From: Streptomyces agglomeratus
GTDB taxonomy: Bacteria; Actinomycetota; Actinomycetes; Streptomycetales; Streptomycetaceae
Direction: 5' to 3'
Assembly: GCF_001746415.1 (NCBI RefSeq)
Contig: NZ_MEHJ01000005.1
Coordinates: 1-12,665, forward strand
DNA length: 12,665 nt
In this document: positions 1-12,665 of the stretch, in pieces
Layout: each line of letters opens with the position of its first letter
Position numbering within the stretch: position 1 is the first letter of the stretch
The notes under the pieces: generated by a model
The model's database searches: none
What the model was told of the DNA's origin: nothing
The model's input: only the letters and a program-made list of their open reading frames with translations
Program-made: the position numbers and the translations under genes

Positions 1-155
1 TGGGTGTGGTCCGGGCTGTGGGCCTGGGCCTGCAGGTGCGTGTACAGCGCGCTGTACTGCTGGACGTCGGCCGGCCTTTCCAGGCAGAGGCCGCTGGTGA
101 ACCTCTCCAGGTACACCACTGCTCCCCTGACGGTGGGGTCGTTGTTCGCCGCCAT
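1..155 (-). CDS. DUF5753-like C-terminal protein, partial (runs off left edge)
   Basis: Reading the minus strand from ATG at 155 gives an open frame to the window edge. It contains a stretch like VVYLERFTSGLCLERPADV followed by QQYSALYTHLQAQAHSP, which resembles the last part of the DUF5753/Scr1 domain: a 'YLE' strand, an 'LE.P.DV..Y' helix start, then 'L.aqAlsP'. That domain normally follows an XRE helix-turn-helix in Streptomyces regulators. A good ribosome binding site (GGAGGT, about 9 bases before the ATG) supports this start, but the front of the domain and the HTH are not encoded upstream in any frame I could read. It may therefore be a 5'-truncated remnant or a small stand-alone protein. 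The family call rests on pattern recognition of about 50 residues, and the 3' end lies outside the window. Confidence 0.45.
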   Translation of the reverse strand, partial: MAANNDPTVRGAVVYLERFTSGLCLERPADVQQYSALYTHLQAQAHSPDHT

Positions 156-534
156 GGGCGGTCTACCTCCAGCTCCAAGCCACTGCGCGTGCCAGCAGGT
201 TGGCATGGAGCACCGGCAGTTGATCACGCGCCGTGCCGCCGGATTCGGCGGGGGCACGAATGGATTGTGACGATGTAATTTGCCGTTCGGTGGCGCCCAG
301 TGCAGAGCAGTGCTCTACAGGGCGGACCGGCGTGCTTCGCCTCTTCGCGCTGTTGCCGCCTGGACCTCGCCGCGGTCACCATGCCAGGCCTTCGCGCACC
401 AGTGGCCGCCGACGGCGGGCAGCCAGCCGCACACGGGTAACTACCTGCGATTACGTAGGTGATCTTGATCCAGTGGCTGATGGCCCGTTGACGTGTCCGA
501 GGGTACGTCAGCCGCGCAGCCGAGAGGCGGTGGG
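156..534. other. intergenic stretch, no supported gene
   Basis: All frames here are shadows or lack recognisable protein. The only structure seen is a weak hairpin at 489-510 (TGACGT / ACGTCA arms, 10-base loop), about 25 bases beyond the stop of the membrane-protein gene at 535. It could act as a modest transcription end for the minus-strand padR pair. Confidence 0.4.
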
Positions 535-1206
535 TCACGTGGCCGGCAGGCGCGCGCATTGGCGGCAGGCGCGGGCCGAGGCTGCCACCACGGCGTGCGA
601 CGCGGCTGCGAGTGCGCCGGCGAACGCGAGCAGTGGCCAGTTCGTGGCCAGGACGGAGGCGGTGGCGAGCGCGAGCGTCGCGACCGCCATGGCAACGCTG
701 GCGGTAGTACCGGTCCATGCGACCGCGAGGGGCAGCTGGTGCGGAATGGGCAGCCAGCGGGCGAGGGTGCCGGTGGTGGCCAGCGTCGCCGCGGCGAGTA
801 GTGCTGCGACGCTGGCAACACCGGCCAGATGAACGGCCAGTAGCTGAGCCGTGCGTGGCAGCTGCCAGGGCTGATCGTGGTCGGTGGTCCAGGCCAGGTA
901 CCAGCAGGCGACCAGGAAGGGGGCGGTGAGGGCGACGGCCCGGGCGGTGTGCCGGGCCTGGGTGATGGTCAGTTCCCGTTGGCAGCTCGGCACGAGTTCG
1001 TCGAGGGTCCCGAACTCTCCCACTGCTTGGTGGGCGGCGCGCTGGTAGGCCATTCCTTCGCGGGTGTGCGCCTCTACCGTGTCCGCGAGGCCGTCGTGTA
1101 TCTCCTCGATCATCCGGGCCTTGATTCGGGCCGGGCCGTGCAGGGCGGCTGTAAGGGCCGCGATGTAATCCTCGATGGGGTCGGCTTGCCGACTGGTGGC
1201 GCTCAT
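535..1206 (-). CDS. permease-prefix-type membrane protein coupled to PadR
   Basis: A 223-residue protein. The first ~75 residues are soluble (IEDYIAALTAALHGPARIKA..., then IHDGLADTVEAHTREG and AAHQAVGEFGTLDELV). This helical pattern matches the 'permease prefix domain 1'/HAAS-like module that commonly accompanies PadR regulators in actinomycetes. Four hydrophobic segments follow, roughly residues 90-110, 125-150, 160-182 and 188-210, so the protein should sit in the cell membrane. I chose ATG at 1206 because it overlaps the padR stop by 4 bases (ATGA). A longer open frame back to 1326 lies entirely inside padR and is not credible. Probable role: a membrane partner or effector whose expression tracks PadR; the substrate is unknown. 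The family is fairly sure, the function inferred. Confidence 0.8.
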   Translation of the reverse strand: MSATSRQADPIEDYIAALTAALHGPARIKARMIEEIHDGLADTVEAHTREGMAYQRAAHQAVGEFGTLDELVPSCQRELTITQARHTARAVALTAPFLVACWYLAWTTDHDQPWQLPRTAQLLAVHLAGVASVAALLAAATLATTGTLARWLPIPHQLPLAVAWTGTTASVAMAVATLALATASVLATNWPLLAFAGALAAASHAVVAASARACRQCARLPAT

Positions 1207-1544
1207 GTGGCAAACCCGGGCGGTGCGGCGGGGTTCAGGACCGAGCCGATCGCTGTGGTGAACTCGCTCCACGCGGTGCGCTCGCTGGCCAGGGTGTGCC
1301 GTCCGGCGTCGGTGAGTTCGTAGCATCGCCGTCGCCGTTCACCAGAAGATTGCCAGCTGCTGCTCAGCAGCCCGAGCCGCTCCAGCCGGTTCAAGGCCGG
1401 GTAGATCGTGCCCGTGCGCAGCTCAAGTGCGCCCCTGCTGCGGTGTTGGACCGCGGCGATGATCGCGTAGCCGTGCAGCGGGCCTGGTTCAAGCACGGCC
1501 AGCAACAGTCCGTCCAGGTGCCCTCGCACCGCGTCTGCCCTCAT
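1203..1544 (-). CDS. PadR family transcriptional regulator
   Basis: A 113-residue winged-helix regulator. The PadR N-terminal domain fills most of it: LLLAVLEPGPLHGYAII (residues ~13-29), the recognition region GTIYPALNRLERLGLL (~45-60), and the wing with RRRRCYELTDAGRHTL (~70-85). The C-terminal dimerisation helix is short, as in the compact PadR subfamily. It starts with ATG at 1544 and its TGA overlaps the ATG of the downstream membrane-protein gene by 4 bases, indicating an operon with translational coupling. The divergent region just upstream holds several palindromes that could be its own operator, so autoregulation plus control of the divergent membrane genes is the simplest reading. 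The ligand is unknown. Confidence 0.9.
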   Translation of the reverse strand: MRADAVRGHLDGLLLAVLEPGPLHGYAIIAAVQHRSRGALELRTGTIYPALNRLERLGLLSSSWQSSGERRRRCYELTDAGRHTLASERTAWSEFTTAIGSVLNPAAPPGFAT

Positions 1545-1630
1545 GAGTAGGCAGCCTACCCAAAATTGCTGTAGGCAGTGTATGTATTGGCAGCCAACAT
1601 ATTTAACGCTTCTGCTCGGAGGAATCCGCA
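1545..1630. promoter_or_regulatory. divergent promoter/operator region with three related GGCAG motifs
   Basis: This 86-base gap between padR (-) and the membrane-protein gene (+) is AT-rich compared with its surroundings. It holds a perfect palindrome GTAGGCAGCCTAC at 1547-1559 (6-base arms), a half-related GTAGGCAGTGTA at 1571-1582, and an imperfect palindrome at 1581-1601 with core TTGGCAGCCAA (1587-1597) flanked by TATGT and ACATA. PadR proteins usually bind ATGT...ACAT-like inverted repeats, so 1581-1601 is the best operator candidate. GGAGG at 1618-1622 is the ribosome binding site of the + strand gene. I could not assign -35/-10 boxes with confidence. Confidence 0.6.
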
Positions 1631-2104
1631 GTGACCAAGGTGCTGCTGTCCGTACATGTCCTCGCGGCGATTCTGGCGGTCGGATCGATCACGGTGGCCG
1701 CGTCCATGTTCCCCCGCTACGCGCTGCAGGCATCTGGCGGCCAGGATCCGGACGGGCGAGCCGCCGGGATCGCCGCACTCCTGCACCGGATCTGCCGCGG
1801 CTACGCTCTCGCCGGTCTCGCCGTGCCGGTCTTCGGGCTCGCCACCGGAGCCCTGCTCGGCGTCCTCACCGACGCCTGGCTGATCGCATCGCTCGCGTTG
1901 ACCGTGATCGCCGCGGCCATCCTCGCCATGGCCATCCTGCCCGGCCAGCAGCGCCTGCTCGCGTTGACCCAGGACTCAGCGCCCCAGGACGGGCAGCGTC
2001 CCGCGGCGACCCGGCTGACCATGCTCACCGGCATCTTCAACGTCCTCTGGGCGATCGTCGTCATCCTGATGATCGTCCGTCCTGGCTCGACCACGGGAGC
2101 GTGA
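1631..2104 (+). CDS. four-helix integral membrane protein (DUF2269-like)
   Basis: A 157-residue protein starting with GTG at 1631, eight bases after GGAGG. Four hydrophobic helices are visible: residues ~3-27 (VLLSVHVLAAILAVGSITVA), ~58-78 (GYALAGLAVPVFGLATGALL), ~85-108 and ~130-152 (LTMLTGIFNVLWAIVVILMI). His8 in the first helix and the overall layout resemble the DUF2269 type of small membrane proteins, but the match is by general pattern only. Its stop overlaps the GTG of the next gene (GTGA, 2101-2104), so the two are probably made together. It is divergent from padR and likely under its control. No enzymatic motif is seen. Confidence 0.75.
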   Translation: MTKVLLSVHVLAAILAVGSITVAASMFPRYALQASGGQDPDGRAAGIAALLHRICRGYALAGLAVPVFGLATGALLGVLTDAWLIASLALTVIAAAILAMAILPGQQRLLALTQDSAPQDGQRPAATRLTMLTGIFNVLWAIVVILMIVRPGSTTGA

Positions 2105-2397
2105 TCCCCGTGCACATGTTGCGGATCGCGGCCGGTGCCGAGACCGCCTCCTTCGCGGTTCTGCTGGGCAACCTGCTCACCACACACACGCAAGCGATCA
2201 CGACGCTCGTCGGCCCGCTGCACGGCACGGCCTACCTCGTCGTCATCGCGGCCACTTCGATGGCCCCGTCTGCCGCCTCGACGGGCGCCCGATGGCGCTC
2301 CGCCATCCCGGGAGTCGGCGGACTGCTTGCCCTACGGCGGATCAACATTCGTACCCAGGGAAGCCAACCTCTTACACGCAATGCCCAGGAAGGGTGA
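2101..2397 (+). CDS. DUF3817-like small membrane protein
   Basis: A 98-residue protein. I chose GTG at 2101 because it overlaps the preceding stop by 4 bases (GTGA). A longer open frame upstream duplicates the previous gene's DNA and is a shadow. The sequence LRIAAGAETASFAVLLGNLL followed by LVGPLHGTAYLVVIAATSM matches the DUF3817 pattern: a polar 'R.A...E..S' in helix 1, then 'GP.HG' at the start of helix 2. In that family these charged and His residues inside predicted helices are the hallmark. Members are small inner-membrane proteins of unknown function. A third weak helix and a polar tail follow. It ends 4 bases before the HD-protein start and probably belongs to the same transcript. Confidence 0.65.
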   Translation: MIPVHMLRIAAGAETASFAVLLGNLLTTHTQAITTLVGPLHGTAYLVVIAATSMAPSAASTGARWRSAIPGVGGLLALRRINIRTQGSQPLTRNAQEG

Positions 2398-2401
2398 CGT
2401 G

Positions 2402-3075
2402 ATGGACAACGCATACGCTGAACTGCTCTTTCCTCGTACCGGCGTAGCACTGAGCGCGATGCGCTTCGTGAAAGGCATCGAGGACCCAGCAATCTTCAAC
2501 CACAGCATGCGCAGCTATCTTTACGGGCGCTTCCTCGGAGAGCAGCAAGGCCTGCAACCCGGCCGCGACTATGACGACGAACTGCTGTTTCTGGGTTGCC
2601 TTCTGCACGACGCCGGACTCAGCCCCGAGGGCAACGGCGATCAGCCCTTCGATATTGACGGCGCCGACCTGGCCGCCCGCTTCCTCACCGACCAGGGGTG
2701 TCACCCGAGAGGGTCGAGGTCATATGGGATGCGATCGCCCTGCACCTGCACTACGAAATCGCCATACGCAAACGTCCCGAGATCGCGTTGGTGACGGCCG
2801 GCGCCGGATTCGACCTTGGCCCCGAGGGGCCCCACACCCTCCCGGCCGGCTACGCAGACCGCATCCATGCCTCGCTGCCCCGCCTCCACGCCGCGCCCGT
2901 GCTCTACGACACGATCGTCGGTCAAGCACTCGACAAACCGCACAAGGCCCCACCATTCAGCATGCCCGGCGAACTGGTTCGCCAGCAGACCCAGGAGGTC
3001 TGGCCTACCTGGAAACAACTGATGACTCAATCCCCCAGTTGGAATGACTACGACGGCTACCAACCGAAGGCGTGA
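2402..3075 (+). pseudogene. HD-domain hydrolase, cyanamide-hydratase-like, one-base frameshift
   Basis: Two frames together give one ~224-residue HD-domain protein. The first part (ATG 2402) carries FNHSMRSYLYG (His34) and ELLFLGCLLHDAGL (His69-Asp70, the HD motif). The second part, in the next frame from about 2698, continues with SPERVEVIWDAIALHLHYEI and KRPEIALVTAGAGFDLGPEG. This order is usual for HD-type cyanamide hydratase-like proteins, metal-dependent enzymes acting on small molecules. The frame changes at a run of four G (2695-2698); one more G would restore TDQGVSPERV. GTG at 2399 is an alternative start. It is a frameshifted gene as printed, possibly intact in reality. The true substrate is unknown. 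Confidence 0.75.
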
Positions 3076-3600
3076 GCACGGGTACCCGGACAGCCGCCGC
3101 ATGCCGAGGCCCTGGTCAGAGCTGAAGAGCGGGCTCGGGCGGGCGTGTCGCGCTGTCCGAGGTGAGAGATCGGGGGCGTTCCCTACTGTCGTCGGGCGGT
3201 AGACGCGCAGGTCGTTGTCCTGCTGCCGCATGACCGCGACAGAGACCCCGACGGCGTGTACTCCACCGGCGCCCGCCGAAGCGATCGACCCCCGCACCCT
3301 TACCCCCACCAGTAAGGGGCGCAAGACCGAACGCTCGGAGGGCGGCCCGCCCTCTTCCGCCATGCAAGAGCTCGGCATAACGCTGCCACTGTAAAGACCG
3401 GAGCCTTGTGCCGGGCAGTCCGCCAGCTCTCAGTACGGCTGACGTTGCTCAAGCCTCGTCCCATTGACGCTGTTGACCAGAGTGCGCCTGCCAGTACGGC
3501 GCATGCAGAGGCAGGTCAGTGAGCCGGGGTGGACTCTCTGGACCCCCTTACGCGCGCACGTGCGTTCAGGTCCTCGCGGGCCGCGACAGAGGCCGCGAAG
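3076..3600. other. long intergenic stretch with one doubtful small ORF
   Basis: No recognisable conserved protein is encoded on either strand apart from the 54-residue reading frame at 3230-3394, described separately. Open frames here on both strands are explained by high GC. The stretch ends at the strong hairpins at 3603-3647. Its lack of coding signal, next to a relaxase fragment, fits a decayed mobile-element flank. Confidence 0.4.
3230..3394 (+). CDS. possible 54-residue small protein, unrecognised
   Basis: ATG at 3230 to TAA at 3394 encodes a small, Thr/Pro-rich, hydrophilic peptide that ends in a hydrophobic MQELGITLPL. About 80% of codons end in G or C, as in real genes here, and an in-frame TAG upstream bounds it. 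A Gly-Gly pair (TERSEGGPPSSAM) sits before the last ~15 residues, which superficially recalls a leader/core border of a modified peptide, but there is no modifying enzyme nearby. No ribosome binding site is visible before the ATG. It could equally be chance or the tail of a lost gene. Confidence 0.22.
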   Translation: MTATETPTACTPPAPAEAIDPRTLTPTSKGRKTERSEGGPPSSAMQELGITLPL

Positions 3601-3602
3601 AG

Positions 3603-3647
3603 CCTGCGACGCGCAGGTCTGGCCGCGACGGCATCGCGGCCAGACCT
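3603..3647. terminator. overlapping strong hairpins (14-bp stem plus 6-bp stem)
   Basis: Bases 3615-3628 pair perfectly with 3634-3647 (14-bp stem starting AGGTCTGGCCGCGA, 5-base loop CGGCA). A second perfect hairpin, CCTGCG-ACG-CGCAGG at 3603-3617, shares three bases with its left arm, so both cannot be fully formed at once. There is only a short T stretch after it. It may be a strong, possibly bidirectional, terminator between the HD-gene side and the relaxase remnant; an attenuator or mobile-element site is also possible. Confidence 0.55.
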
Positions 3648-3734
3648 TGATCTCTGTGCCCGGAGAGGGCCCCACCCCGGCCCCCGGGCTGCCGGCGAAG
3701 GGCCGGGCCAGCGTCCCGGGCGCGGCGGGCCACC

Positions 3735-3897
3735 GTCCTCGGTCGGCCGGTGGCCTCCGTCACCCGCTGCTCGCCGTCGACTTCGTCTTCCGGCCGCAGG
3801 CGAGCCTGGTGGTGGTATGGGCCCTGGGGGACGACAAGACGCGGCGGATCATCGAGCGTGCGCACGAGCGGGCCATCGCCGCGACGATCGCTACTTG
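3735..3897 (+). pseudogene. MobF/TrwC-type relaxase fragment, truncated at both ends
   Basis: Around 55 residues of a conjugative relaxase survive: VLGRPVASVTR in one frame (3735-3767), then HPLLAVDFVFRPQASLVVV and WALGDDKTRRIIERAHERAI in the next (to about 3895). In TrwC/TraA-type relaxases the segment 'DF.F.P..S....WALGD......AHe.A' lies inside the N-terminal relaxase domain, after the catalytic tyrosines. Those tyrosines, the metal-binding histidines and the helicase part are absent. The frame slips by one base near 3765. Fragments of an 'F/GEGPHP' segment may extend homology left to about 3660 in mixed frames. The right end stops abruptly at the AGTTGGCCA motif (3899), suggesting loss or replacement of the rest. 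It is a non-functional relic showing that a conjugative element was once here. Confidence 0.65.
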
Positions 3898-3898
3898 T

Positions 3899-3927
3899 AG
3901 TTGGCCATTGTGCGCTTCAGTTGGCCA
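3899..3927 (+). repeat. tandem AGTTGGCCA motif at relaxase truncation point
   Basis: AGTTGGCCA occurs at 3899-3907 and again at 3919-3927, 20 bases apart, exactly where relaxase homology stops. Two spaced copies of a short motif are typical of the ends of IS21-like insertion sequences; this may be a leftover end. No transposase is present nearby, so the assignment is an inference. Confidence 0.35.
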
Positions 3928-3981
3928 CCTGATACTCAGGCGGCGCGCGGCCGTACCCCAGCCCAGGGGCCACCGACGTCG

Positions 3982-4520
3982 CTAGTTCAGCTGTCGATCG
4001 GCGAGCCATCGGGACTGTGCCACGTCGTCGCTTCCCACGGTCAGGCCAGCTCTGGCGGCGGTGTAAAAACGGTCCCGACCGTCGTCGGCCCGACGCACGG
4101 CAGCCACCCAGTCGAAGTCAGGTTCGGCGAGATCCCGTGCCGCCCGTTCCAGCTGCAGGACCGCCCACCGCCATTCGCGCGCGGCAGCCACCGTGTCAGC
4201 ATCACCCAGCAAGAGCACCCCCTCCACGCTTTGGTCCGCTGGGCATCCGCTTCGGCCAGCAGCTCAAGTCCGGTGGTCCGATCGATCGGATGCGCCCGTG
4301 ACGAGGGCCGGGACGGCGCCGTTATGCGGTGCGCAAGTAAGTGGACCTCTTTGAGTGCGCGAGCGTACTCGGAGTAGGCATCCAATCGTCGCTCGTCCCA
4401 CCGTACTGAAAGGGCTCGCGTCCACTGCGCTCTGTCATTGAGGCGGGTTGTGAGGAGCGTTCCGAAGGCGCCGACGATGACACCGATGAGTGCTGGCAGT
4501 TGACTGAGGAAGGTAGTCAC
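3982..4520 (-). pseudogene. membrane-anchored hypothetical protein, one-base frameshift
   Basis: Two overlapping frames give one ~179-residue protein. From GTG 4520 the first part has a single N-terminal transmembrane helix (LPALIGVIVGAFGTLLTT, residues ~8-25) and a charged helical region (SVRWDERRLDAYSEYARALK, ending ...LLAEADAQRTKAW). The second frame continues from about 4225 as EGVLLLGDADTVAAAREWRW and ends RWLADRQLN. An in-frame stop just upstream rules out a longer 5' end. This layout (one helix, then a long cytosolic helical bundle) matches a conserved hypothetical family of Streptomyces that I recognise but cannot name. The frame changes at 4222-4227, in CCCCTCC; one extra G on the coding strand restores KAWEGVLLLG. 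Function unknown. Confidence 0.65.
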
Positions 4521-4677
4521 TTCCGGAGCTTGCCCCCGTCATCGCAGAGCCGCACCGGTTGAGCGCGATTGCAGCGATGGGGCGGGTAAACGCTCACGTG
4601 CGCGGCCACCTGGCGAGCCCAGAGCGGCCAACTAGCGTGCCCGACCACACCGCCACTCTCGCGCCTGCGTGGTGAGC

Positions 4678-4714
4678 GTGACTCCAAAATCGAACGCATG
4701 GTCTAATTTGAGTC
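4678..4714 (+). promoter_or_regulatory. candidate sigma-70-type promoter for a leaderless transcript
   Basis: GTGACT at 4678-4683 (like a -35 box) and TCTAAT at 4702-4707 (like a -10 box) are 18 bases apart. The -10 ends seven bases before the ATG at 4715, so transcription would start at or next to the start codon. No ribosome binding site is visible, which fits leaderless translation, common in actinomycetes. Confidence 0.45.
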
Positions 4715-4956
4715 ATGGCGCATTCCACGCTCCCCGACGACCTGGCGCAGGCGCAGTACGACTGGGGCCGTACGTACACCGCGCTTGCCGCTGCCCACCC
4801 ACGCGGCACCACGGCGCTGCGGCGTCGCTTGCTGCACCTCTCCAACCGGCTCTTCTGGCATCCCTTCTGGTCCACCCCGGCCGGACATCGACCGCCGCCC
4901 GGGCCGCCCTGTCCCAGCCGGTACGCGCCCACAAACGAGGGAGGGATGCGCCGTGA
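4715..4956 (+). CDS. short conserved hypothetical protein (probable frameshift near 4880)
   Basis: ATG 4715 opens MAHSTLPDDLAQAQYDWGRT and continues TTALRRRLLHLSNRLFWHPFW, a basic helical protein. In the printed frame the reading runs on into the next gene. Moving one frame near 4873-4884 gives TSTAARAALSQPVRAHKRG and a TGA at 4954-4956, overlapping the ATG of the LexA-like gene (TGATG). That end is more natural: about 80 residues, alanine/arginine-rich, helical tail. I resemble it to small Streptomyces proteins of the 'LP.DL..AQ..W' type but cannot assign a function. It shares a transcript with the two genes downstream. Confidence 0.55.
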
Positions 4957-5164
4957 TGGGTCACCTGACCGTGAGGCAGGAGCAAGTTCTGGCCTGTATC
5001 CGGGAGTGGATCTACGAGCACGGGAGGGGCCGACGGTTCGCGAGATCGGTCACCGGGTCGGCCTGTCCAGCACCTCGTCCGTGCAGTACCAGCTCAAGCG
5101 GCTTGAGCAGCAGGGCGTGATCTCGCGCAGTGGCAGCCGCTGGCGCTCCTACCGATTGACCTGA
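4956..5164 (+). pseudogene. LexA-type DNA-binding protein without peptidase domain, one-base frameshift
   Basis: ATG 4956 begins MGHLTVRQEQVLACIREWIYEHG. The next frame continues EGPTVREIGHRVGLSSTSS and VQYQLKRLEQQGVISRSG, ending SYRLT at 5164. Together (about 69 residues) this is the complete LexA N-terminal winged-helix domain: the 'LT.RQ..VL..I..w' helix, 'G..PTVREIG..VGLSS.SSV..Ql..Le..G' recognition region, and wing. The C-terminal autoproteolysis domain (Ser/Lys dyad) is missing by design, not by truncation, since the next gene starts 15 bases later; such short LexA-like proteins are known in Streptomyces. The frame shift lies at 5022-5029 (GGGAGGGG); one more G restores EHGEGPTV. It could not respond to RecA as true LexA does. 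Its targets are unknown. Confidence 0.75.
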
Positions 5165-5179
5165 AGGCGGGGCACCGCC

Positions 5180-5524
5180 ATGTCCGCACCGTTTGATCTC
5201 CCACCGGACCTGTCGCGCCTGCGCGTGCTGGAGACCTTCCTGCTCGCGATCCTGGCCCGGGTGCGGGAGCGGATCCGGCACCTGGAGCAGCAGGCTGTCA
5301 TCCACGAGAAGATCGAGCGGCAGAAGCCGCCGCCGGAGTGGACGGTGCAGATCAGCATCAACGGGCACACGCCCGTCGCCGTGCACGTCGGCGCGTGTTC
5401 CATGGGCGGAAGCGAGGTCCGCAGCAAGGCGATCAGCCGGCAGGACGCGATCCAGGCCCTGCACGACGGGGTCAGCGCCTGCACCCTGTGCCGCCCGGAC
5501 ACGGAACTGGGCATCCTCGAGTAA
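5180..5524 (+). CDS. DUF6233 family protein
   Basis: A 114-residue protein starting with ATG at 5180 after an AAGGCGGGG stretch. Residues 5-45 form an N-terminal helix region (LPPDLSRLRVLETFLLAILARV, then IRHLEQQAVIHEKIE). A PPPEW motif follows, then a strand region with PVAVHVGACSMGGSEVRSKA, and it closes with SRQDAIQALHDGVSACTLCR and PDTELGILE. The 'VHVG.C', 'A...L..GV.AC..CRPDTELGIL' pattern is the signature of DUF6233, small Streptomyces proteins of unknown function often found in variable regions. Two cysteines in ACTLCR plus the earlier GACS might bind metal. It ends 11 bases before the convergent end of ku, and is intact. Confidence 0.8.
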   Translation: MSAPFDLPPDLSRLRVLETFLLAILARVRERIRHLEQQAVIHEKIERQKPPPEWTVQISINGHTPVAVHVGACSMGGSEVRSKAISRQDAIQALHDGVSACTLCRPDTELGILE

Positions 5525-5535
5525 GACGGGCTGAC

Positions 5536-6469
5536 CTAGGCGCTGGACTTACGCCCCGTCGTCTTCTTTGCCGCCGACTTCTTGCCCGGGGCCTTGGCCG
5601 CTTCTTGGCGGGCGCGTTCGCGGCTTTGCGTTCTACGTGCCCGGCCATGTCATGGACGCTCGCATCATCGCCGCCCGCGCCGCCCGCGCGGCCTGGACCT
5701 CGCCGCGGGCCTGGCGTGCGACTCACGGATTCGAGCAGTGCGGACATGAGGTCGACGACGGGCCGCGGCCGGCTCGGGCTGAGCCCCTTCGGGCTTCGCA
5801 CCCTCGGCCTTGGCGCGGATCAGATCTTCCAGGGCTGCGCGGTAATGATCACGGAAACCACTGAGGTCCTCAACGGCCATGGCCTCCATGAGGTCGACGG
5901 CCGCCTCGATCTCCTCGTCGGCCACGGGCACAGGCTTGGGGAGCAAGGACTCAGGGGAGCGGATCTCGTCCGGCCACTTCAGGCTGTGCAGGACGATCGC
6001 GTCCTCCTTGATCCGCAGCAGCCCGAGGCGCTCCCGGTTGTGCCACGCGTACTTGGCGACGGCGACCTTGCTGGAGCGCTCCAGGGCCTGGCGGAGCACG
6101 TAGGGCTTCGCTGCGACGGCGCCGTCGGCTGCCAGATAGTAGGAGTCGCCGATGCGTACAGGGTCGATGGACTCGGCCGGCACGAAGCGACGATCTCGAT
6201 GGCCTTCGCGGTGGGCAGCGGCATGCGTCGAGCTCGGCGTCCGTGACCTCGATGATCGTGTCGCGGGAGATCTCGTAGCCGCGCCCGATCTCGCCCTGGT
6301 GCACGACTTGCCCGTCCAGCTCGCAGACCTTCTGGTACCGGATCCGACCGCCATCGGCCTCATGGAACTGACGGAAGGCGATGCTGTGGTTCTCGGTGGC
6401 GCTCAGGACGCGACAAGGGATGGTCACTAGGCCGAACGAGATGGCTCCACTCCAGATGGGGCGTGGCAT
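5536..6469 (-). pseudogene. ku: Ku protein (non-homologous end joining), several one-base frameshifts
   Basis: ATG 6469, six bases after GGAGG, begins MPRPIWSGAISFGLVTIPCR, the canonical bacterial Ku start. It continues with IGRGYEISRDTIIEVTDAEL, then (next frame, from ~6222) PLPTAKAIEIV, then (next frame, from ~6187) FVPAESIDPVRIGDSYYLAA, then HNRERLGLLRIKEDAIVLHS and PDEIRSPESLLPKP. The C-terminal end appears in changing frames (VVDLMSALLESV near 5750; DDASVHDMAGH; AKAPGKKSAAKKTTGRKSSA) to TAG at 5536. The Lys-rich tail is usual for Streptomyces Ku. At least four frame changes occur, most explained by one missing base, yet the conserved residues remain. Ku forms a homodimeric ring on broken DNA ends and recruits LigD; no ligD lies in this window. 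Either a dead extra copy or a gene damaged by sequence errors. Confidence 0.9.
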
Positions 6470-6746
6470 GGCGGGCCTCCAGCGGTGGGGATCGCCTAAA
6501 ACGGACACCGCAGTGGGCGTGGGGGCGGGCCCGGACACTCCGCCGGGTGAAACGTCGGGATGGTCGCTCTCACCGGGCGAGGCGACGACGAGCGGGTCTC
6601 CGCAGAGGCCCACTACCCCGATCCGGTTTGCGCGAGGGCGAAGGTGCGCGAGTCGTCGTCGATCACCCCCGGTGTCGTCCTGTCGTTAGCTCCGGCCGGG
6701 TGGAGGATGGGTCTTGATGATCACCGCTGACCCTCGGGAGGGGACC

Positions 6747-7050
6747 ATGGCCGACGTCTGGGTGCTCAGTCCAAGTCACAGCGAGCCGGAGAAAAGCCGT
6801 CTGATCCGTTCCGACGCCATCACCTACCTCAGCACGTCCGCCGAGGAGCTTGTCGCGGCCCGCGTCGGATCGGACGACACTGTGTCTGGTTCACCGGGCC
6901 ACCCAGGGCGGCAGAGACCTCCCCGACGACTTCCACCTCGCCTACCTGGCCAAGCTCGCCGTGGCCCGCGGGCGGGCCCGCGTGAGCGAGGAGGACCTGG
7001 TGCTCCTCGCCGACACGGACGCCAACGGCGCGGAGCTTTGGCCAGCCTGA
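6747..7050 (+). pseudogene. small hypothetical protein, two-base slip
   Basis: ATG 6747, preceded by GGGAGGGG, encodes MADVWVLSPSHSEPEKSRLI and DAITYLSTSAEELVAARVGS. The next frame continues CLVHRATQGGRDLPDDFHLA, YLAKLAVARGRARVSEED and LVLLADTDANGAELWPA, ending at 7050. Combined length is about 101 residues. The switch is at 6880-6886 (ACTGTGTCTG); restoring one GT unit gives DDTVCLVHR, so a two-base deletion in a GT repeat is likely. It looks like a compact alpha/beta protein, mostly soluble, with no motif I can name. It is divergent from ku, with about 277 bases between them holding no other gene, so a shared control region is possible. Confidence 0.55.
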
Positions 7051-7105
7051 CTTTCGTATCAGCTGGCCCTGCCAAGGGGGAACCGGACGCATTCGCCGAG
7101 CAGTC

Positions 7106-7122
7106 CCCCGCACCGGGCGGGG
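7106..7122 (+). terminator. GC-rich hairpin downstream of the 6747 gene
   Basis: CCCCGC (7106-7111) pairs perfectly with GCGGGG (7117-7122) around a five-base loop, 55 bases beyond the stop at 7050. There is no T tract, as is common for Streptomyces terminators. Confidence 0.4.
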
Positions 7123-7192
7123 ATTCGCTGGCGTCTGGCCTGGTCAGCGTCCGGTGAGCCGGTGGAGCGCGGGAGCACTGACGCCGCCGCTG

Positions 7193-7221
7193 TGCCGGCC
7201 GGCATGGGGGTGAGAGCCCTG
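7193..7221 (+). repeat. 29-base dispersed direct repeat, copy 1
   Basis: Begins TGCCGGCCGG and ends GCCCTG. It matches 8310-8338 at 25 of 29 positions in the same orientation; weaker similarity extends about 40 bases to the left. The copies flank the two minus-strand small genes at 7407-8251. Confidence 0.6.
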
Positions 7222-7406
7222 AACGGGGGCAGGGCCCCCACAACGCGGGTCCGTGGGGACGGATATGCATGCACGCGTCAGCGAACAACGACCACCAGGG
7301 CGTCACGGTCACTGCCTGCCCGGAGTGCGCTGTGTCTTAAGCGTCGTGAGTCTCGGGCTGCAGAAGGCGCGTCTTGTGGGCACCCGGGCAGGCAGACCAG
7401 ACATGA

Positions 7407-7771
7407 CTACGCCGCTTCCGCCCGGTCAGCATCAGCGTCCAGCTCATGCACATGCTTCAGCGCCATCCGCTGATCCACCCTCTTGCCCACCTCAACCGTC
7501 TCCCAGTACGGATGCGTCGACACCACAGCCGACAACTCAAGGAGCTCACGACGCAGGCGGGCGACCTCCACCTTCTGCACGTCGGTGTACCCAGGGCTGG
7601 GCGGCAGGCTGCGGGGTTCCCCGTCGCTGTAGAGAACCTTCGGAGCCGTCCACCCCTCCGAGGGCTCCACCGACCAGGGAGAGTGCGGCCGAGGGCTTCG
7701 TACTCCGCCCAAGTCTGGTGCAGGCGCAGCTGAGCCGCGCGAAGGTCTTCGGGAAAGTCGTACGTAGCCAC
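7407..7771 (-). pseudogene. conserved hypothetical protein, one-base frameshift
   Basis: GTG 7771 encodes MATYDFPEDLRAAQLRLHQT and WAEYEALGRTLP. The next frame continues WSVEPSEGWTAPKVLYSDGE, EVARLRRELLELSAVVSTHP, YWETVEVGKRVDQRMALKHV and ends at TAG 7407. The combined protein is about 121 residues: an N-terminal helical hairpin, a Pro/Trp-rich linker (residues ~32-60), then a helix and an acidic tail. I recognise the 'M.TYDFP.DL..AQ..LHQ.WAEY' type as a recurrent Streptomyces accessory protein of unknown function. The frame changes at 7677-7679 (CTCCCTGG on the coding strand); one more C restores TLPWSVEP. It lies downstream of the 8023-8251 remnant in the same direction and may have shared its transcript. 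Confidence 0.65.
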
Positions 7772-8022
7772 CCCAGAATGCTACTCGTGTTCGATTTCCT
7801 AAGGCCAGCAGGCGCGCCCAGACCACGGCGATCAGCCCCCTGGCCGATCCCGCGTCGCGGGTGCATGCCCGCCATCAAGGTGGGCGGCCGGATGTGGTCC
7901 TCGCTGCCCCCAGCAGACAGGACCCTCGGCCCGTCTGCTGACACGAGCGCCCGGTACACCGAGGGGGACTTGCAGCACGCGGTAGGCCGCGGGCAGCAGG
8001 TCGAGGTCGGCGACGACCCCAA

Positions 8023-8251
8023 CGCCTGCGCCCGGCTGATCCCCAGCTCGGCCTGCGGGTACTCACCCGCCGTAGCCCAGGGCCACCCACACCCGCGCCC
8101 GGTGCGCTTCGCGCACCCGCTGCGCCAGCACCACAGCCGCCCGCTGCGCTTCGCCGATCGCCGCACGCAGCTGCTCGGTCAGCCGGACCGCATGTACCCG
8201 GCCCACCGGCTCCAGCCCCGCACCCTGACCCTGCTCATCCGAGGAAGCCAC
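8023..8251 (-). pseudogene. hypothetical regulator-like protein, truncated remnant
   Basis: GTG 8251 encodes 62 residues (MASSDEQGQGAGLEPVGRVH, LTEQLRAAIGEAQRAAVVLA, RVREAHRARVWVALGYGG) before a TGA at 8063-8065. A neighbouring frame carries on EYPQAELGISRAQA to about 8023. In related Streptomyces proteins this joins as a helix-turn-helix-like 'W..LGY..W..Y...E.GISR.QAYRL'. Two missing bases at the stop would rejoin them. Beyond 8023 the homology is lost; 7772-8022 holds no recognisable gene. So this is probably a true remnant of a DNA-binding or phage-related protein, with its C-terminal half decayed. The family assignment is tentative. Confidence 0.45.
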
Positions 8252-8309
8252 AGCTCCATGGTGCTCCCCGTGAGCCCGGCCGGGCAGGGGGCACGAGAAG
8301 CACGCGCGC

Positions 8310-8338
8310 TGCCGGCCGGTAGGAGGGTGAGGGCCCTG
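8310..8338 (+). repeat. 29-base dispersed direct repeat, copy 2
   Basis: Second copy of the repeat at 7193-7221 (4 mismatches). It sits eight bases left of the IS-end-like repeat at 8347. Confidence 0.6.
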
Positions 8339-8346
8339 TCGGTTGT

Positions 8347-8387
8347 CACGAGAACGTCAGTGGGTCTGCCACGGATATGTCAGTGGG
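8347..8387 (+). repeat. IS-end-like repeat, copy A (two GTCAGTGG motifs)
   Basis: Contains GTCAGTGG at 8356-8363 and 8379-8386, 23 bases apart, preceded by CACGAGAAC. It aligns with 11067-11108 in the same orientation, with roughly three of four bases identical. Paired spaced motifs resemble IS21-type ends; no transposase is adjacent. Confidence 0.55.
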
Positions 8388-8547
8388 CTTTCCTTGACCG
8401 CGGTGGGGTCGCGTGTCGGACGGCATGGAAGATTTCAGTAGCGCACGATTCATTTCAGGACGCCTTTCAGTGCCGCAGCGAAGATGGCAGTGCGGACTCG
8501 GACGCTCGATCGGCAACTATCCGGTCGTGCAGGATCGTCCTTCGGGT

Positions 8548-10553
8548 ATGCCCCACCCGAGCTCCGAACCGTCCCCAACTCCGCCTGCCTGGCCGCACTG
8601 TGGCCACGGCACCACGCCGGTGGACCCCGTCGGCTGCCGCGGCATCCACGTCCCCGGCCACACCGCATGCCTCGCCCACCTGGACGACACGGACCGCGAC
8701 GCCTACCTGGCCGGCCTGACCCCCGGCGCCGACATCGACCACTGCGGCACCACCTTCACCCAACCTCTTCTGGACGCCCTCCTCGATGCCCTCCGCGACC
8801 CCGCCACCGGACACCCCCACTTCGGCGACGCCGGGTTCGGGTCGGCGACCTTCCAGGGCCGCGCCCTCTTCGGGTCGGCCACCTTCCGGGGCGACGCCAT
8901 GTTCGAGTCGGCGATCTTCGAGGGCGACGCCGGGTTCAGGTTGGCTACCTTCGAGGGCTACGCCATGTTCGGGTCGGCGACCTTCCAGGGCCGCGCCCTC
9001 TTCGGGTCGGCGACCTTCGAGGGCGACGCCGGGTTCGGGTCGGCGACCTTCCAGCGCGACGCCGGGTTCTGGTCGGCGACCTTCGAGGACTACGCCGACT
9101 TCGAGTCGGCGACCTTCGAGGGCGACGCCGGGTTCAGGTCGGCGACTTTCCAGGGCGGCGCCGGGTTCGGGTCGGCGACTTTCCAGGGCGGCGCCGACTT
9201 CGGGTCGGCGACCTTCGAGGGCGACGCCGGGTTCAGGTCGGCGACCTTCGAGGGCGGCGCCGACTTCGAGTCGGCGACTTTCCAGGGCGGCGCCGGGTTC
9301 TGGTCGGCGACCTTCCAGGACTACGCCATGTTCGGGTCGGCGACCTTCCAGGACTACGCCATGTTCGGGTCGGCGACCTTCCAGCGCTACGCCATGTTCG
9401 GGTCGGCGACCTTCCAGAGCGATGCCCGGTTCGGGCAGGCGGTTTTCGAGCAGTCGGTCAGCCTCGGGCCGTTGGTGTGCGCGGGGCGGATGAAGTTGTC
9501 CGGCGCGGTGTTCGGCGGCCCGGCGACCCTCTCCTTCGCCGCACGCCGCCTGGAGTGTCGGCGGACCCGCTGGTCGTCTACCGCCGAGTTGCGTCTGCGC
9601 TACGCCACGGTGGACTTCGCCCACGCGGTCTTCGAATACCCCCTCACGATCGCCGCGGAAGCCGACCCCTTCGTTCTCCCCGACGGCCAGCCGGTGGCAG
9701 AACAGGCTCTGGCCGACGCGCCCGACGCCACGGTGCGCATAGCCTCGCTGCGTGGCGTGGACGCGGCGCATCTGGTCCTCGCGGACGTCGACCTGTCGGG
9801 GTGCCTGTTCACCGGGACCGTGCACCTGGACCAGCTGCGGCTGGAGGGCAACTGCTCCTTCGATGCAGTCCCGCCGCGTACGCACTGGGGGCGCTGGCGC
9901 CCCGTACGGTTCACCCAGCGCCGTACCCTCGCCGAAGAACACCACTGGCGCGCGAGCCGGCCGGCGGCAGTCCGGGGCTGGAACGTGGCGGTGCTCGGAA
10001 CTGGACGTGTCGGGCCGTTGCAACTGGCGCCGGTGTACCGGGCGCTGCGCAAAGCGTTCGAGGATGGCAAACACGAGCCGGGGGCGGCCGACTTCTACTA
10101 CGGGGAGATGGAGATGCGCCGCCACGCCGACCACATCCCCCGAAGCGAACGGAGCCTTCTGACCGCTTACTGGGCACTGTCCGGCTACGGTCTGCGCGCC
10201 TCCCGGGCCCTGGGCTGGCTCGCTGCCGCCATGCTCATCACCATCATGCTGCTCGTGGGCTTCGGGCTCCCGAAGGATTTCCCGAAGCAGGAAGCGACCG
10301 GCACCGTGCCGCCCGGCGGAGGCAAGGTCACCTTCGAGATCGACAAGGCTGATCCCCAGAACCCCACGGGGACCGGTTCACCGGCGAGCGCTTCGAGAAG
10401 GCCCTGAACGTCACGCTCAACTCGGTGGTGTTCCGCTCCTCCGGCCAGGACCTGACCACCACCGGCACCTACATCGAGATGGCGTCCCGCGTGACCGAGC
10501 CGGTCCTGTTGGGCCTGGCGGTCCTGGCCGTTCGTAACCGCGTGAAACGCTGA
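8548..10553 (+). CDS. pentapeptide-repeat membrane protein, probable frameshift near C-terminus
   Basis: I place the start at ATG 8548 (MPHPSSEPSPTPPAWPHCGH), which matches the usual start of this Streptomyces family; the frame is open back to GTG 8413. Residues ~20-80 hold a Cys/His-rich cap (PHCGH, VGCRGIHVPGHTACLAHL). Next come eighteen 11-residue units of the form ATF(Q/E)G.A.F.S, a right-handed quadrilateral beta-helix of the pentapeptide class. A second beta region (~residues 300-500) follows, then YRALRKAFEDGKHEPGAADF and a transmembrane helix (LAAAMLITIMLLVGFGLP). The printed frame stops at 10407. One more G at 10368-10371 continues as DRFTGERFEKALNVTLNSVV and EPVLLGLAVLAVRNRVKR to TGA 10553, the expected family end. 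Probably membrane-anchored; the role is unknown (scaffold or target mimicry are options). Confidence 0.85.
8845..9438 (+). repeat. tandem array of eighteen 33-bp units
   Basis: Eighteen consecutive 33-base units, each coding ATF.(5)A.F.S-type 11-mers, are nearly identical at the DNA level (most begin GCGACCTTC and contain TTCGGGTCG or TTCGAGTCG). Units 1 and 5, 9 and 12, and 15 and 16 encode identical peptides, pointing to recent duplication or conversion. Confidence 0.85.
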
Positions 10554-10653
10554 CCTATCGCCCGACGGCCAGGTCCAAGCAGAGCGCCGCACTGAAACAA
10601 ATGGTGCGCTCGCTCGGTCAGATGTCGCCGCACCAGAGATTTCAGCGCCCAGG

Positions 10654-11016
10654 TCACCGGGCCGCCAACTGGCGTGGTGCGCGGATCATGCTCTCCTTGG
10701 AAGAGCCGATCTCGCCGCGGCTGGCATTGGTGATGAAGCCGAGGCGTCGGTAGAACGCGTGCAGCCGATCCGGGGCCCCGCCGAAATTGCCGCTTGGACC
10801 GAGCGCCACCGGCACACCGTGCAGGTCGGCCGCGGCGGTGATGCGCTCCATGACGCGCGTGCCGATCCCGTTCCCTCGCTCGCTCTCCGGGAGGACGATC
10901 CAAAACAGCACGAGATACGGACCGCGATCGAGTCCGAGTTCAAGCCGCACGCTCGGGTTGCTGGTCCGTATCCCCTCGGCCAGGGCATCGGCCCATGACT
11001 TCGGTGCTTGGTCCAT
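10654..11016 (-). CDS. GNAT-family N-acetyltransferase, copy 1
   Basis: A 120-residue protein from ATG 11016, with AAAGGAG six bases upstream. The GNAT acetyl-CoA motif is visible: strand LVLFWIVLPESE, then RGNGIGTRVMERITAAA (the R-x-x-G-x-G loop, residues ~47-53), followed by VPVALGPS and the C-terminal LHAFYRRLGF motif. It is short for GNAT but contains the central fold. The substrate cannot be told. It is convergent to the pentapeptide gene and is about 70% identical to the second GNAT at 11110; the similarity ends at RAP near the C-terminus. Unlike copy 2, it has its own ribosome site and no partner gene. Confidence 0.8.
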   Translation of the reverse strand: MDQAPKSWADALAEGIRTSNPSVRLELGLDRGPYLVLFWIVLPESERGNGIGTRVMERITAAADLHGVPVALGPSGNFGGAPDRLHAFYRRLGFITNASRGEIGSSKESMIRAPRQLAAR

Positions 11017-11066
11017 GAACGCTCCTTTCGATTCGATCGGGCGGCAATCGGCGAAGTGTCGTCTGC

Positions 11067-11108
11067 CACGAAAACGTCAGTGGCTTTGCCGCGAGGTGTG
11101 TCAGTGGG
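11067..11108 (+). repeat. IS-end-like repeat, copy B (two GTCAGTGG motifs)
   Basis: GTCAGTGG occurs at 11076-11083 and 11100-11107, 24 bases apart, preceded by CACGAAAAC. It is the partner of copy A at 8347-8387. It lies between the two GNAT genes and ends one base before the stop codon of copy 2 (11110-11112). Confidence 0.55.
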
Positions 11109-11109
11109 G

Positions 11110-11478
11110 TTAGCCGACCGAGGCGGAGCTGTGTGGAGTGCGGACCATGCTCTCCCGAGGAGAGCCGATCTCGCCGCGCCTGGTGTTGGGGACGAAGCCG
11201 AGACGTCGGTAGAACGCGTGCAGTCGGTGCAGGTCCCCGCCGAACGTGTCGCTCGGGCTGAGCGTGATCGGTACACCACGGACATCGGCGGCGGCGGTGA
11301 TGTGCTTCATGACTCGGGTGCCGAGCCCTTTGCCCCGTTCGCTTTCGGGCAAGAAGATCCAGAACAGCACGAGGTACGGACCACGATCGATCCCGAGTTG
11401 AAGGCGTACACCCGGGTACCTGGTCTGGATCTCTTCGGCCAGGGCGTCGGCCCATGCCTCCTGCGCCTGGTCGGTCAC
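11110..11478 (-). CDS. GNAT-family N-acetyltransferase, copy 2
   Basis: A 122-residue paralogue of the 10654 gene. It has the same landmarks: LVLFWIFLPESERGKGLGTR (acetyl-CoA loop RGKGLG), VPITLSPSDTFGG and LHAFYRRLGFVPN. GTG at 11478 overlaps the resolvase stop by 4 bases (GTGA), so it is translated from the resolvase transcript. Its last ~10 residues differ from copy 1, and its TAA directly abuts the IS-end-like repeat, so the natural C-terminus may have been replaced. Coupling of an acetyltransferase to a resolvase suggests cargo carried by a mobile unit, not a functional partnership. Substrate unknown. Confidence 0.8.
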   Translation of the reverse strand: MTDQAQEAWADALAEEIQTRYPGVRLQLGIDRGPYLVLFWIFLPESERGKGLGTRVMKHITAAADVRGVPITLSPSDTFGGDLHRLHAFYRRLGFVPNTRRGEIGSPRESMVRTPHSSASVG

Positions 11479-12148
11479 CGGCTGCCGCCTTCGAGCTGGG
11501 CCGGGACGCGGGAGGTCCGCAGCTCCTTGAGCTCCGGGATGTGGTTGTAGAGGGTGCCCACCGAGACGCCGAGCAGGGCCGCGATGGTCTCGATGCTGTT
11601 CTCCGGGTTGGGCAGCATGTCGCGGGCGGCGCGCAGCAGGTTGTCGTTGACGACGGTGGGTCGGCCGCCGACGCGGCCGCGGGCCCGCGCGGCGGCCAGG
11701 CCCTCGTTGGTGCCCGACACGATCAGTTCCCGGATGAATTCCGCGAGGGCGGCGAAGACGTGGAAGATCAGCCTTCCGCCGGGGTGGTGGTGTCGAGGTT
11801 CTCGTGCAGGGAGGTGAAGCCGATCTGCCGCTTACGGAGTTCGGCGACCATGTTCACCAGGTCCTGGAGGCTGCGGCCGTACCGGTCCAGGGAGGGGACG
11901 ACGAGCGTGTCCCCGCTCTGGAGGAAGGCGTGGCACGCCTTCAGCTCCGGGCGCAGGTCGTTCTTCCCGGACTTCTTCTCAGGAAAGATGCGCCGGCATC
12001 CCGCGAGGGTGAGGGCGTCGATCTGCCGGTCGAACTTCTGCCCGCCGGTGGAGACCCGGGCGTAGCCGATCCGGATCTCGCTGGAGCGGAGGGGGAAGAC
12101 GGCGAGGAGGTCGTCGTCCGCGGCGAGGACATCGGTCAGGTTGGTCAC
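11475..12148 (-). pseudogene. serine recombinase (resolvase/invertase family), one-base frameshift
   Basis: GTG 12148 starts a ~224-residue protein in two frames. The first frame gives IRIGYARVSTGGQKFDRQID (catalytic Ser33), the PSLDRYGRSLQDL motif (Arg89/Arg92, active-site arginines) and LHENLDTTTPAEG. The next frame gives LIFHVFAALAEFIRELIVSG, GLAAARARGRVGGRP and a C-terminal helix-turn-helix, IETIAALLGVSVGTLYNHI, ending at 11475. These are the full parts of a small Tn3-type resolvase. One G missing at 11776-11777 causes the TGA after AEG; restoring it gives PAGRLIFH. About 24 residues precede the usual start. It cuts and rejoins DNA at a res site. No transposase or clear res site was found in the window. 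Confidence 0.85.
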
Positions 12149-12198
12149 TCGCGTCAGTGTGCCGTCAGCGGCGGCGCCGGGGCGGACGATCGTGAACG

Positions 12199-12232
12199 CC
12201 GGCAGGGCCCTGACACGCCCGGGCCCTGCCGG
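12199..12232 (-). terminator. perfect 12-bp hairpin after the CDF gene
   Basis: CCGGCAGGGCCC (12199-12210) pairs perfectly with GGGCCCTGCCGG (12221-12232) around a 10-base loop. It lies 14 bases beyond the stop of the transporter gene and upstream of the resolvase gene, as expected for a terminator. There is no T tract. Confidence 0.65.
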
Positions 12233-12245
12233 TCACCGAGGACGG

Positions 12246-12665
12246 TCAGGTGCAGCAGTCACATCCGGGGCGGCAGCCGCACGCGTCCGCCTCACCGCCG
12301 GCGGACGGTGCCACCGCGGCGGTGGGTGCGCAACAGCCCTTGCCCTGCCAGGCGTCGCGGCCTTCCTTGACGGCGATGGCGGCAATGACCAGGGCGGCGA
12401 TCGGGTCGGCCCAGGACCAGCCGAGGGTGGCGTTGAGGACCAGGCCGACCAGGAGGACGGCGGAGAGGTACGTGCACAGCAGGGTCTGCTTGGAGTCGGC
12501 GACCGCGCTGGCGGAGCCGAGTTCGCGGCCGGCCTTGCGCTGAGCGGCGGACAGGAACGGCATCACCGCGAGCGAGAGAGCGGCGATGACGATGCCGGGG
12601 ATGGAGCGTTCGGCCTCGCCGGTGCCCGCCAGCGCCCGGACGGCGTCGAGGGTGACGTACACGGC
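12246..12665 (-). CDS. CDF-family metal efflux transporter, C-terminal part (runs off right edge)
   Basis: The frame is open to the window edge; about 139 residues are visible. It has transmembrane helices (IPGIVIAALSLAVMPFLSAA; LLCTYLSAVLLVGLVLNATL; ADPIAALVIAAIAVKEG) and the conserved segment SASAVADSKQTLLCTYLS between them, which carries the transport-site Asp in this subgroup of cation diffusion facilitators. It lacks the usual large cytosolic C-terminal domain. Instead it ends in a Cys-rich tail with seven cysteines (GKGCC, DACGCRPGCDCC). CDF proteins export Zn, Co, Cd or Fe in exchange for protons; the cysteine tail may bind the metal. The N-terminal half, and possibly an ArsR-type regulator, would lie beyond 12665. 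Confidence 0.8.
   Translation of the reverse strand, partial: AVYVTLDAVRALAGTGEAERSIPGIVIAALSLAVMPFLSAAQRKAGRELGSASAVADSKQTLLCTYLSAVLLVGLVLNATLGWSWADPIAALVIAAIAVKEGRDAWQGKGCCAPTAAVAPSAGGEADACGCRPGCDCCT

Follow-up and report, generated by a model that had tools for sequence, protein, structure and literature searches.

The 12,665-bp contig NZ_MEHJ01000005.1 of Streptomyces agglomeratus (assembly GCF_001746415.1), referred to here as C5 and taken in its entirety as the window of this analysis, displays at least nine genes that are interrupted by small deletions, among them genes for an HD-domain protein, a LexA-type DNA-binding protein, Ku, a pentapeptide-repeat protein and a serine resolvase. 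The question raised by this locus is whether such a cluster marks a stretch of decaying genes or was created in the course of sequencing and assembly, as a sequence-only reading of the window had proposed. Because near-identical copies of the same genes in the same assembly read through unbroken, the breaks are judged to be, very probably, consensus errors in a redundant, poorly corrected leftover contig and not marks of gene decay. On the sequence comparisons presented below, the cluster of broken genes is almost certainly not a real feature of the genome.

Redundancy of C5 within the assembly

The assembly consists of 9,128,732 bases in five contigs (C1, 8,325,022 bp; C2, 741,474 bp; C3, 36,210 bp; C4, 13,361 bp; and C5). 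Searched against the assembly, the window matches three places: window 1-6909 corresponds to the last 6.9 kb of C1 (C1:8318096-8325022, hereafter the C1 end), window 1-7189 to C3:24577-31810 on the opposite strand, and window 4686-12665 to C1:8073365-8081345 (hereafter C1 8.07 Mb). Every base of C5 is also present on C1, and C5 holds no sequence that is absent from C1. The identity of C5 to its copies is 99.3-99.7%, with BLAST alignments giving 3 mismatches and 16 gap openings in 6928 columns against the C1 end, 2 and 19 in 7236 columns against C3, and 8 and 27 in 8002 columns against C1 8.07 Mb. The proposal of sequencing or assembly error is thereby upheld, as each of the nine genes is unbroken in one copy or more and the copies differ from C5 almost only by insertions and deletions (indels). 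The positions of these genes, and of the other features of the window, are collected in Table 1.

The region in which the copies meet is a repeat of ∼2.5 kb, the Ku island. C1:8313694-8325022 and C3:24886-36210 overlap at 99.9% over 11.3 kb. C1 comes to an end within the Ku island, so that the assembler evidently faced two possible continuations there. From the overlap, the right end of C1 and C3 look like one unmerged locus, in which case C3 would extend C1 by ∼24.9 kb.

Table 1. Features of the window (positions in C5; strand relative to C5).
Feature	Position	Strand	Remarks
Whole contig C5	1-12665		Fully redundant with C1, partly with C3 too
Ku island, ∼2.5-kb repeat	4686-7189		In C5, C3 and C1 8.07 Mb; in the C1 end only to 6909
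HD-domain gene (PF01966)	2402-3075	+	Broken at ∼2695 in C5; one frame in the C1 end and C3; Pfam match on the C1-end copy
Relaxase (TrwC-like) remnant	3464-3982	+	TrwC profile positions 70-115 of 286; 24.9 bits, Pfam cut-off 25
Hypothetical gene	3982-4530	-	Broken at ∼4224 in C5; open frame of 185 amino acids in the C1 end and C3
Small gene	4715-4956	+	Broken at 4889 in C5, C3 and C1 8.07 Mb; open in the C1 end only
LexA-type DNA-binding domain gene (PF01726)	4956-5164	+	Broken at 5022 in C5, C3 and C1 8.07 Mb; open in the C1 end only
DUF6233 gene	5180-5524	+	Intact; PF19746, 63.2 bits
Ku gene (PF02735)	5636-6470 (low end approximate)	-	Several breaks in C5, including 6187 and 6225; open in the C1 end and C3
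Hypothetical 6747 gene	6747-7050	+	Broken at ∼6884 in C5; one frame on C3; broken at C1 8.07 Mb too
A-to-B switch interval	6961-7030		A-type substitutions at 6939 and 6960; B-type state at 7031
Hypothetical 7407 gene	7407-7771	-	Broken at ∼7677 in C5; open in C1 8.07 Mb
Pentapeptide-repeat gene (PF13576, Pentapeptide_3)	8398-10553	+	Broken at ∼10368 in C5; open frame of 718 amino acids in C1 8.07 Mb
Serine resolvase gene (PF00239)	11475-12148	-	Broken at ∼11781 in C5; one frame of 252 amino acids in C1 8.07 Mb
Cation-efflux gene fragment (PF01545)	12246-12662	-	Runs off the contig end; frame-keeping three-base private deletion at ∼12299

Differences private to C5

An event was counted as private to C5 where C5 differs from every other copy covering that place, the truth for these error counts thus being approximated by the other copies in the same assembly. 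The 12.7 kb of C5 hold 16 such events, comprising 15 net deletions (nine single-base, four two-base and two three-base losses) and one insertion of a single base, with no stand-alone substitution; the frame is altered by 14 of them. The bias towards shortening (15/16, binomial p 0.0005) is accompanied by an enrichment in G/C runs, as 11 events touch a run of at least three, compared with 3.3 expected from random places (none of 5000 draws reached the observed number), and seven touch a run of at least four, compared with 0.9 under the null. Eight of the 16 fall in window 4686-6909, the part present in four copies (p 0.003), and five lie outside the nine genes (∼6491, ∼6560, which is the insertion, ∼6622, ∼7119 and ∼7255). 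The designation as private is supported for eight events by three other contigs, for two by the C1 end and C3 (probably one locus), and for six, all beyond 7030, by C1 8.07 Mb alone. Six of the 16 events seen against the C1 end (∼4889, 5022, 5601, 5682, 5692 and 5720) were dropped as unsupported by other copies, and among the 32 seen against C1 8.07 Mb only the six beyond 7030 were counted, the remainder being paralogue differences or events counted already.

The differences thus have the properties of long-read deletion-type error: they are dominated by deletions and enriched in homopolymers, and the affected frames are open in one or more of the copies and, for several of the genes, in relatives or paralogues. 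A different origin would be that C5 is a true third copy, i.e. a recently duplicated segment in which genes are decaying. A frame can be lost naturally by slippage in G/C runs as well, which is in keeping with such an origin, but relaxed selection should in addition have produced substitutions, insertions and stops, and the substitutions and stops that accompany indels in a pseudogene cluster were not found in the 12.7 kb. With 16 indels and no stand-alone substitution relative to copies in the same genome, real decay does not fit, whereas a deletion-biased consensus error does. As, moreover, all of the C5 sequence is present on C1, we consider a decaying third copy very improbable.

A course of events in which consensus errors arise can be outlined as follows. 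C5 would have been left over where the assembler met the 2.5-kb repeat and was probably built from very few long reads, the consensus of which would have lost bases, mostly inside G or C runs. Most of these losses would shift the frame and make neighbouring genes look broken, though the genome very likely carries them intact. We infer a long-read origin of C5 from the five-contig outcome together with the type of error, and an absence of effective polishing from the ambiguous mapping of reads that derive from repeats, with low coverage as a further part of this inference.

Reading frames of the nine genes

Stop-to-stop frames of at least 50 amino acids in C5 were compared with those of the copies, and matches of >95% identity were listed. 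Each of the nine genes has an open frame in one copy or more, and five of them are broken in C5 only. The breaks reported from sequence alone were largely located correctly, in that each coincides, to within about 5 bases, with a site at which one or more near-identical copies are longer than C5. The positions ∼2695, ∼4224, 5022, 6187, 6225, ∼6884, ∼7677, ∼10368 and ∼11781 are confirmed, but the break of the small gene falls at 4889 and not in the interval 4873-4884 first assigned to it. Most of the breaks are private to C5, but those at 4889 and 5022 are common to C3 and C1 8.07 Mb, and the lesion of the 6747 gene at 6884 is partly common to C1 8.07 Mb.

Homology was further claimed to continue across the breaks, and for the HD, Ku, 6747, pentapeptide and resolvase genes proteins of relatives or paralogues indeed run through the break sites without a change of frame in one copy or more, but occupy two or three frames in C5. 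Proteins of two relatives cross the break of the HD gene in one frame in both of its copies and in two frames in C5. At the Ku sites ∼6187 and ∼6225, three relatives and two paralogues follow a single frame in the copies but several frames in C5. The Ku gene holds two further private events, at ∼5762 and at ∼6095 (the latter of three bases), and its frame between stops extends over 329 amino acids in the C1 end and 315 in C3, and is shortened to 251 at C1 8.07 Mb. For the 6747 gene one paralogue crosses in one frame on C3 and in more than one in C5; ten relatives of the pentapeptide gene and one of the resolvase gene are matched through the break by a single frame of the copy but by several frames of C5. 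Relatives that align in a single frame, at 65-67% identity, over nearly the whole length of the LexA-type protein from the C1 end occur in other genomes (e.g. G086, G070 and G183), while most of 199 genomes give just a 48% match. At the 7677 run of the 7407 gene, C1 8.07 Mb agrees with a paralogue at C1 7.747 Mb, in opposition to C5, and a second paralogue at C2 680 kb differs from both. An apparent sharing of the C5 state by these two paralogues was dropped on inspection of the alignment, in which the C1 7.747-Mb paralogue is broken elsewhere and that of C2 is unlike both.

When the unbroken copies were scanned, the families HD, LexA_DNA_bind, Ku, Pentapeptide_3 and Resolvase were matched, and no Pfam family was found for the other four genes (the hypothetical gene at ∼4.2 kb, the small gene, 6747 and 7407). 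In an automatic annotation, C5 would be recorded with about nine false pseudogenes and contribute to a false count of broken ku genes. A cheap test that needs no reads is to align a doubtful contig to nearly identical copies within the same assembly and to ask whether the differences are confined to indels.

Frame breaks elsewhere in the assembly

In three regions of the C1 core, which were compared with up to five relatives by a homology-based break caller over 34,404 coding bases, no real break was found. Five candidates in these regions were dropped, in the analyst's judgement, as each lies at a gene border and the best frames of the relatives are unbroken; candidates near window 1602 and 8480 in C5, along with their counterparts in the C1 end and C1 8.07 Mb, were judged to be border artefacts as well. 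In a scan of codon usage, an insensitive measure that caught four of the at least nine breaks of C5, C5 gave four frameshift-like switches in 6,946 coding bases and the C1 core one in 52,722 (Fisher p 0.0008, a value that refers to C5 versus the core only). The same scan gave four switches in 52,410 coding bases of five C2 regions, one in 20,994 on C3 and none in 9,087 on C4. With 5.8 switches per 10 kb C5 ranks highest of the 20 stretches scanned, the C1 7.745 Mb region having 4.0 per 10 kb. The C1 8.07-Mb copy has nine single-base losses of its own in window 4817-5959 (read by eye from the alignment), at other sites than those of C5, as expected if deletion-biased errors fall at random, and C1 may be poorly supported at the site of this cluster (C1:8073.4-8074.7 kb, L030).

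Several observations weigh against consensus error as the full account. Nine regions at the C1 end and in the arms show 16 switches in 100,046 coding bases, which is above the core rate (for C5 versus the arm regions the comparison is one of raw rates), and some real decay may be present nearby in the arms. Decay is likewise favoured by paralogues that are broken in unique sequence: Ku genes at C1:7756768-7757303 and C2:686283-686821 and the 7407 paralogue at C1:7747592-7748252 have broken frames, and no near-identical copy by which error and decay could be told apart was found for them. The six events beyond 7030 have a single comparison copy, with outside evidence as to the correct side for three of them (7677, 10368 and 11781). 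While the 16 private events are by definition unshared, the broken state at 4889 and 5022 is common to three of the four contigs, the C1 end alone differing, and at 5601, 5720 and 6886 the state of C5 is that of C1 8.07 Mb; each of these common states could stem from systematic miscalls, from shared reads or from true variants. The Ku relative L111 gave no clear frame result at the break sites in C5, and the pentapeptide relative L051 is split in both C5 and C1 8.07 Mb.

Finally, five of the 16 private events make no contact with a G/C run of at least three. This departs from an error confined to homopolymers and is also at odds with the notion that the breaks are programmed frameshifts or phase-variable runs. 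The many sites that are G/C runs would suit such a function, but it would have to operate in nine unrelated genes, copies of which have an uninterrupted frame in the same genome, and we regard it as barely conceivable, no search aimed at slippery sites or downstream signals having been made. Errors in the consensus of C5 remain the explanation that we prefer.

A hybrid junction in the Ku-island repeat

Within the Ku-island repeat C5 is a hybrid that carries the substitutions of copy A (C1 end/C3) up to 6960 and is of copy B (C1 8.07 Mb) from 7031, where a 27-bp state is of the B type and the B flank lies beyond. The two Ku-island repeats on C1 have the same orientation and are 249,428 bp apart, i.e. 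they are direct repeats, and in C5 the sequence to the left of the distal repeat is connected to that on the right of the proximal repeat. A join of this kind would be the junction expected of an arm circle, a tandem duplication or a misassembly. We consider it possible, though rather unlikely, that C5 is a real minority molecule formed by homologous recombination between the two Ku-carrying direct repeats near the right end of C1, and that it records an arm circle or tandem duplication present in part of the population; the breaks would still be errors, stemming from few reads, and the two explanations can hold together. The position of the switch from copy A to copy B, inside a repeat that is present in direct orientation, is in agreement with such a molecule, as is the circular, amplifiable template between direct repeats that is discussed for Streptomyces (PMC5869714, as excerpted). 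A 2.5-kb repeat is, however, also a classic place for a misjoin, which would give the same picture, and the copy-B states at 5601, 5720 and 6886 lie inside the copy-A part, which suits blended reads. Were the molecule real, a stray contig would here reveal the template that has been proposed for amplification in Streptomyces arms, and with a real A/B junction, rearrangements of the arms could be sought in small redundant contigs.

Other genes of the window and related sequences

The relaxase remnant was held in the sequence-only reading to be genuinely truncated, in distinction to the broken genes, and this is supported, because C5, the C1 end and C3, the copies that cover it, are without any difference there. 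C5 and C1 8.07 Mb likewise do not differ over window 7678-10367, so that the degenerate-looking coding sequence in this interval is probably real. Parts of window 7193-7388 and 8022-8338 are found again on C1, C2 and C3, at some eight or more places, where the two stretches adjoin in reverse order (8022-8338, then 7193-7388), as if the 7407 gene were flanked in the window by two incomplete copies of a single repeated element. Window 10654-11016 and 11110-11478 hold two adjoining genes of GNAT-type acetyltransferases on the minus strand that are similar by eye and perhaps represent a tandem duplication. Window 529-2104 contains a PadR regulator, an upstream reading frame that matches no Pfam family, and a DUF2269 gene; plasmid records of Embleya and Streptomyces give matches of up to 83%, some of them unannotated there.

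Comparison with homologous loci in related Streptomyces genomes had been suggested as a check. No near-identical sister copy was found among the matches listed for two genus samples of 150 and 343 genomes, but the proteins of relatives fit the unbroken copies. The whole window matched 29 of the 150 genomes (E <= 1e-200) and window 2390-7800 matched 64 of the 343 (E <= 1e-70), own genome included in both cases; among the matches listed, the whole block occurs in no other genome, the best outside identities being 93% over 0.3 kb, 89% over 0.7 kb and 87% over 0.6 kb. The DUF6233 protein, searched against named species genomes, gave three distant loci, and the 1 kb inspected of one of them was uninformative. 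The window is without a match in the phage collection. In the plasmid collection 101 records match, 95 of them from Streptomyces, and none has a single place that covers 80% of the window.

Comparison with known systems

The possible junction in C5 resembles the intermediates of Streptomyces arm amplification in the use of direct repeats, a circular template formed between such repeats being discussed as the source of amplification in the excerpted account of PMC5869714. The model further implies a joining of the left flank of the downstream copy to the right flank of the upstream copy, as seen in C5, a corollary that follows from the model and is not quoted from that source. The amplifiable units of DNA (AUDs) described there measure 14.2-32.8 kb and reach several hundred iterations, compared with a putative interval of 249 kb in the present case.

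The excerpted text of PMC5124664 describes additional ku genes of Streptomyces, located in variable regions or on plasmids, and the Ku genes seen here conform to this description. Unlike that account, as far as it is excerpted, the present genome holds 18 Ku-profile stretches, some of which are pieces of one broken gene or duplicates of the assembly. With 10 of 20 candidates scored, its Ku count of 10 is the highest among 295 genomes of the genus, its own included, the next being 9, 8 and 8.

For the breaks themselves, the closest parallel is provided by uncorrected long-read assemblies of high-GC genomes. Short-read correction of three Streptomyces assemblies built from PacBio reads only altered 70, 295 and 335 places, the vast majority being single-base insertions in homopolymers (PMC6923854, as excerpted). 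C5 is similar in that single bases are missing mainly in homopolymers and frames are broken. It differs from the pattern excerpted from PMC6923854 in having two- and three-base losses and one insertion in addition, and in density: 70-335 alterations are spread there over a whole genome, whereas C5 concentrates 16 events in 12.7 kb while the tested core of C1 is clean.

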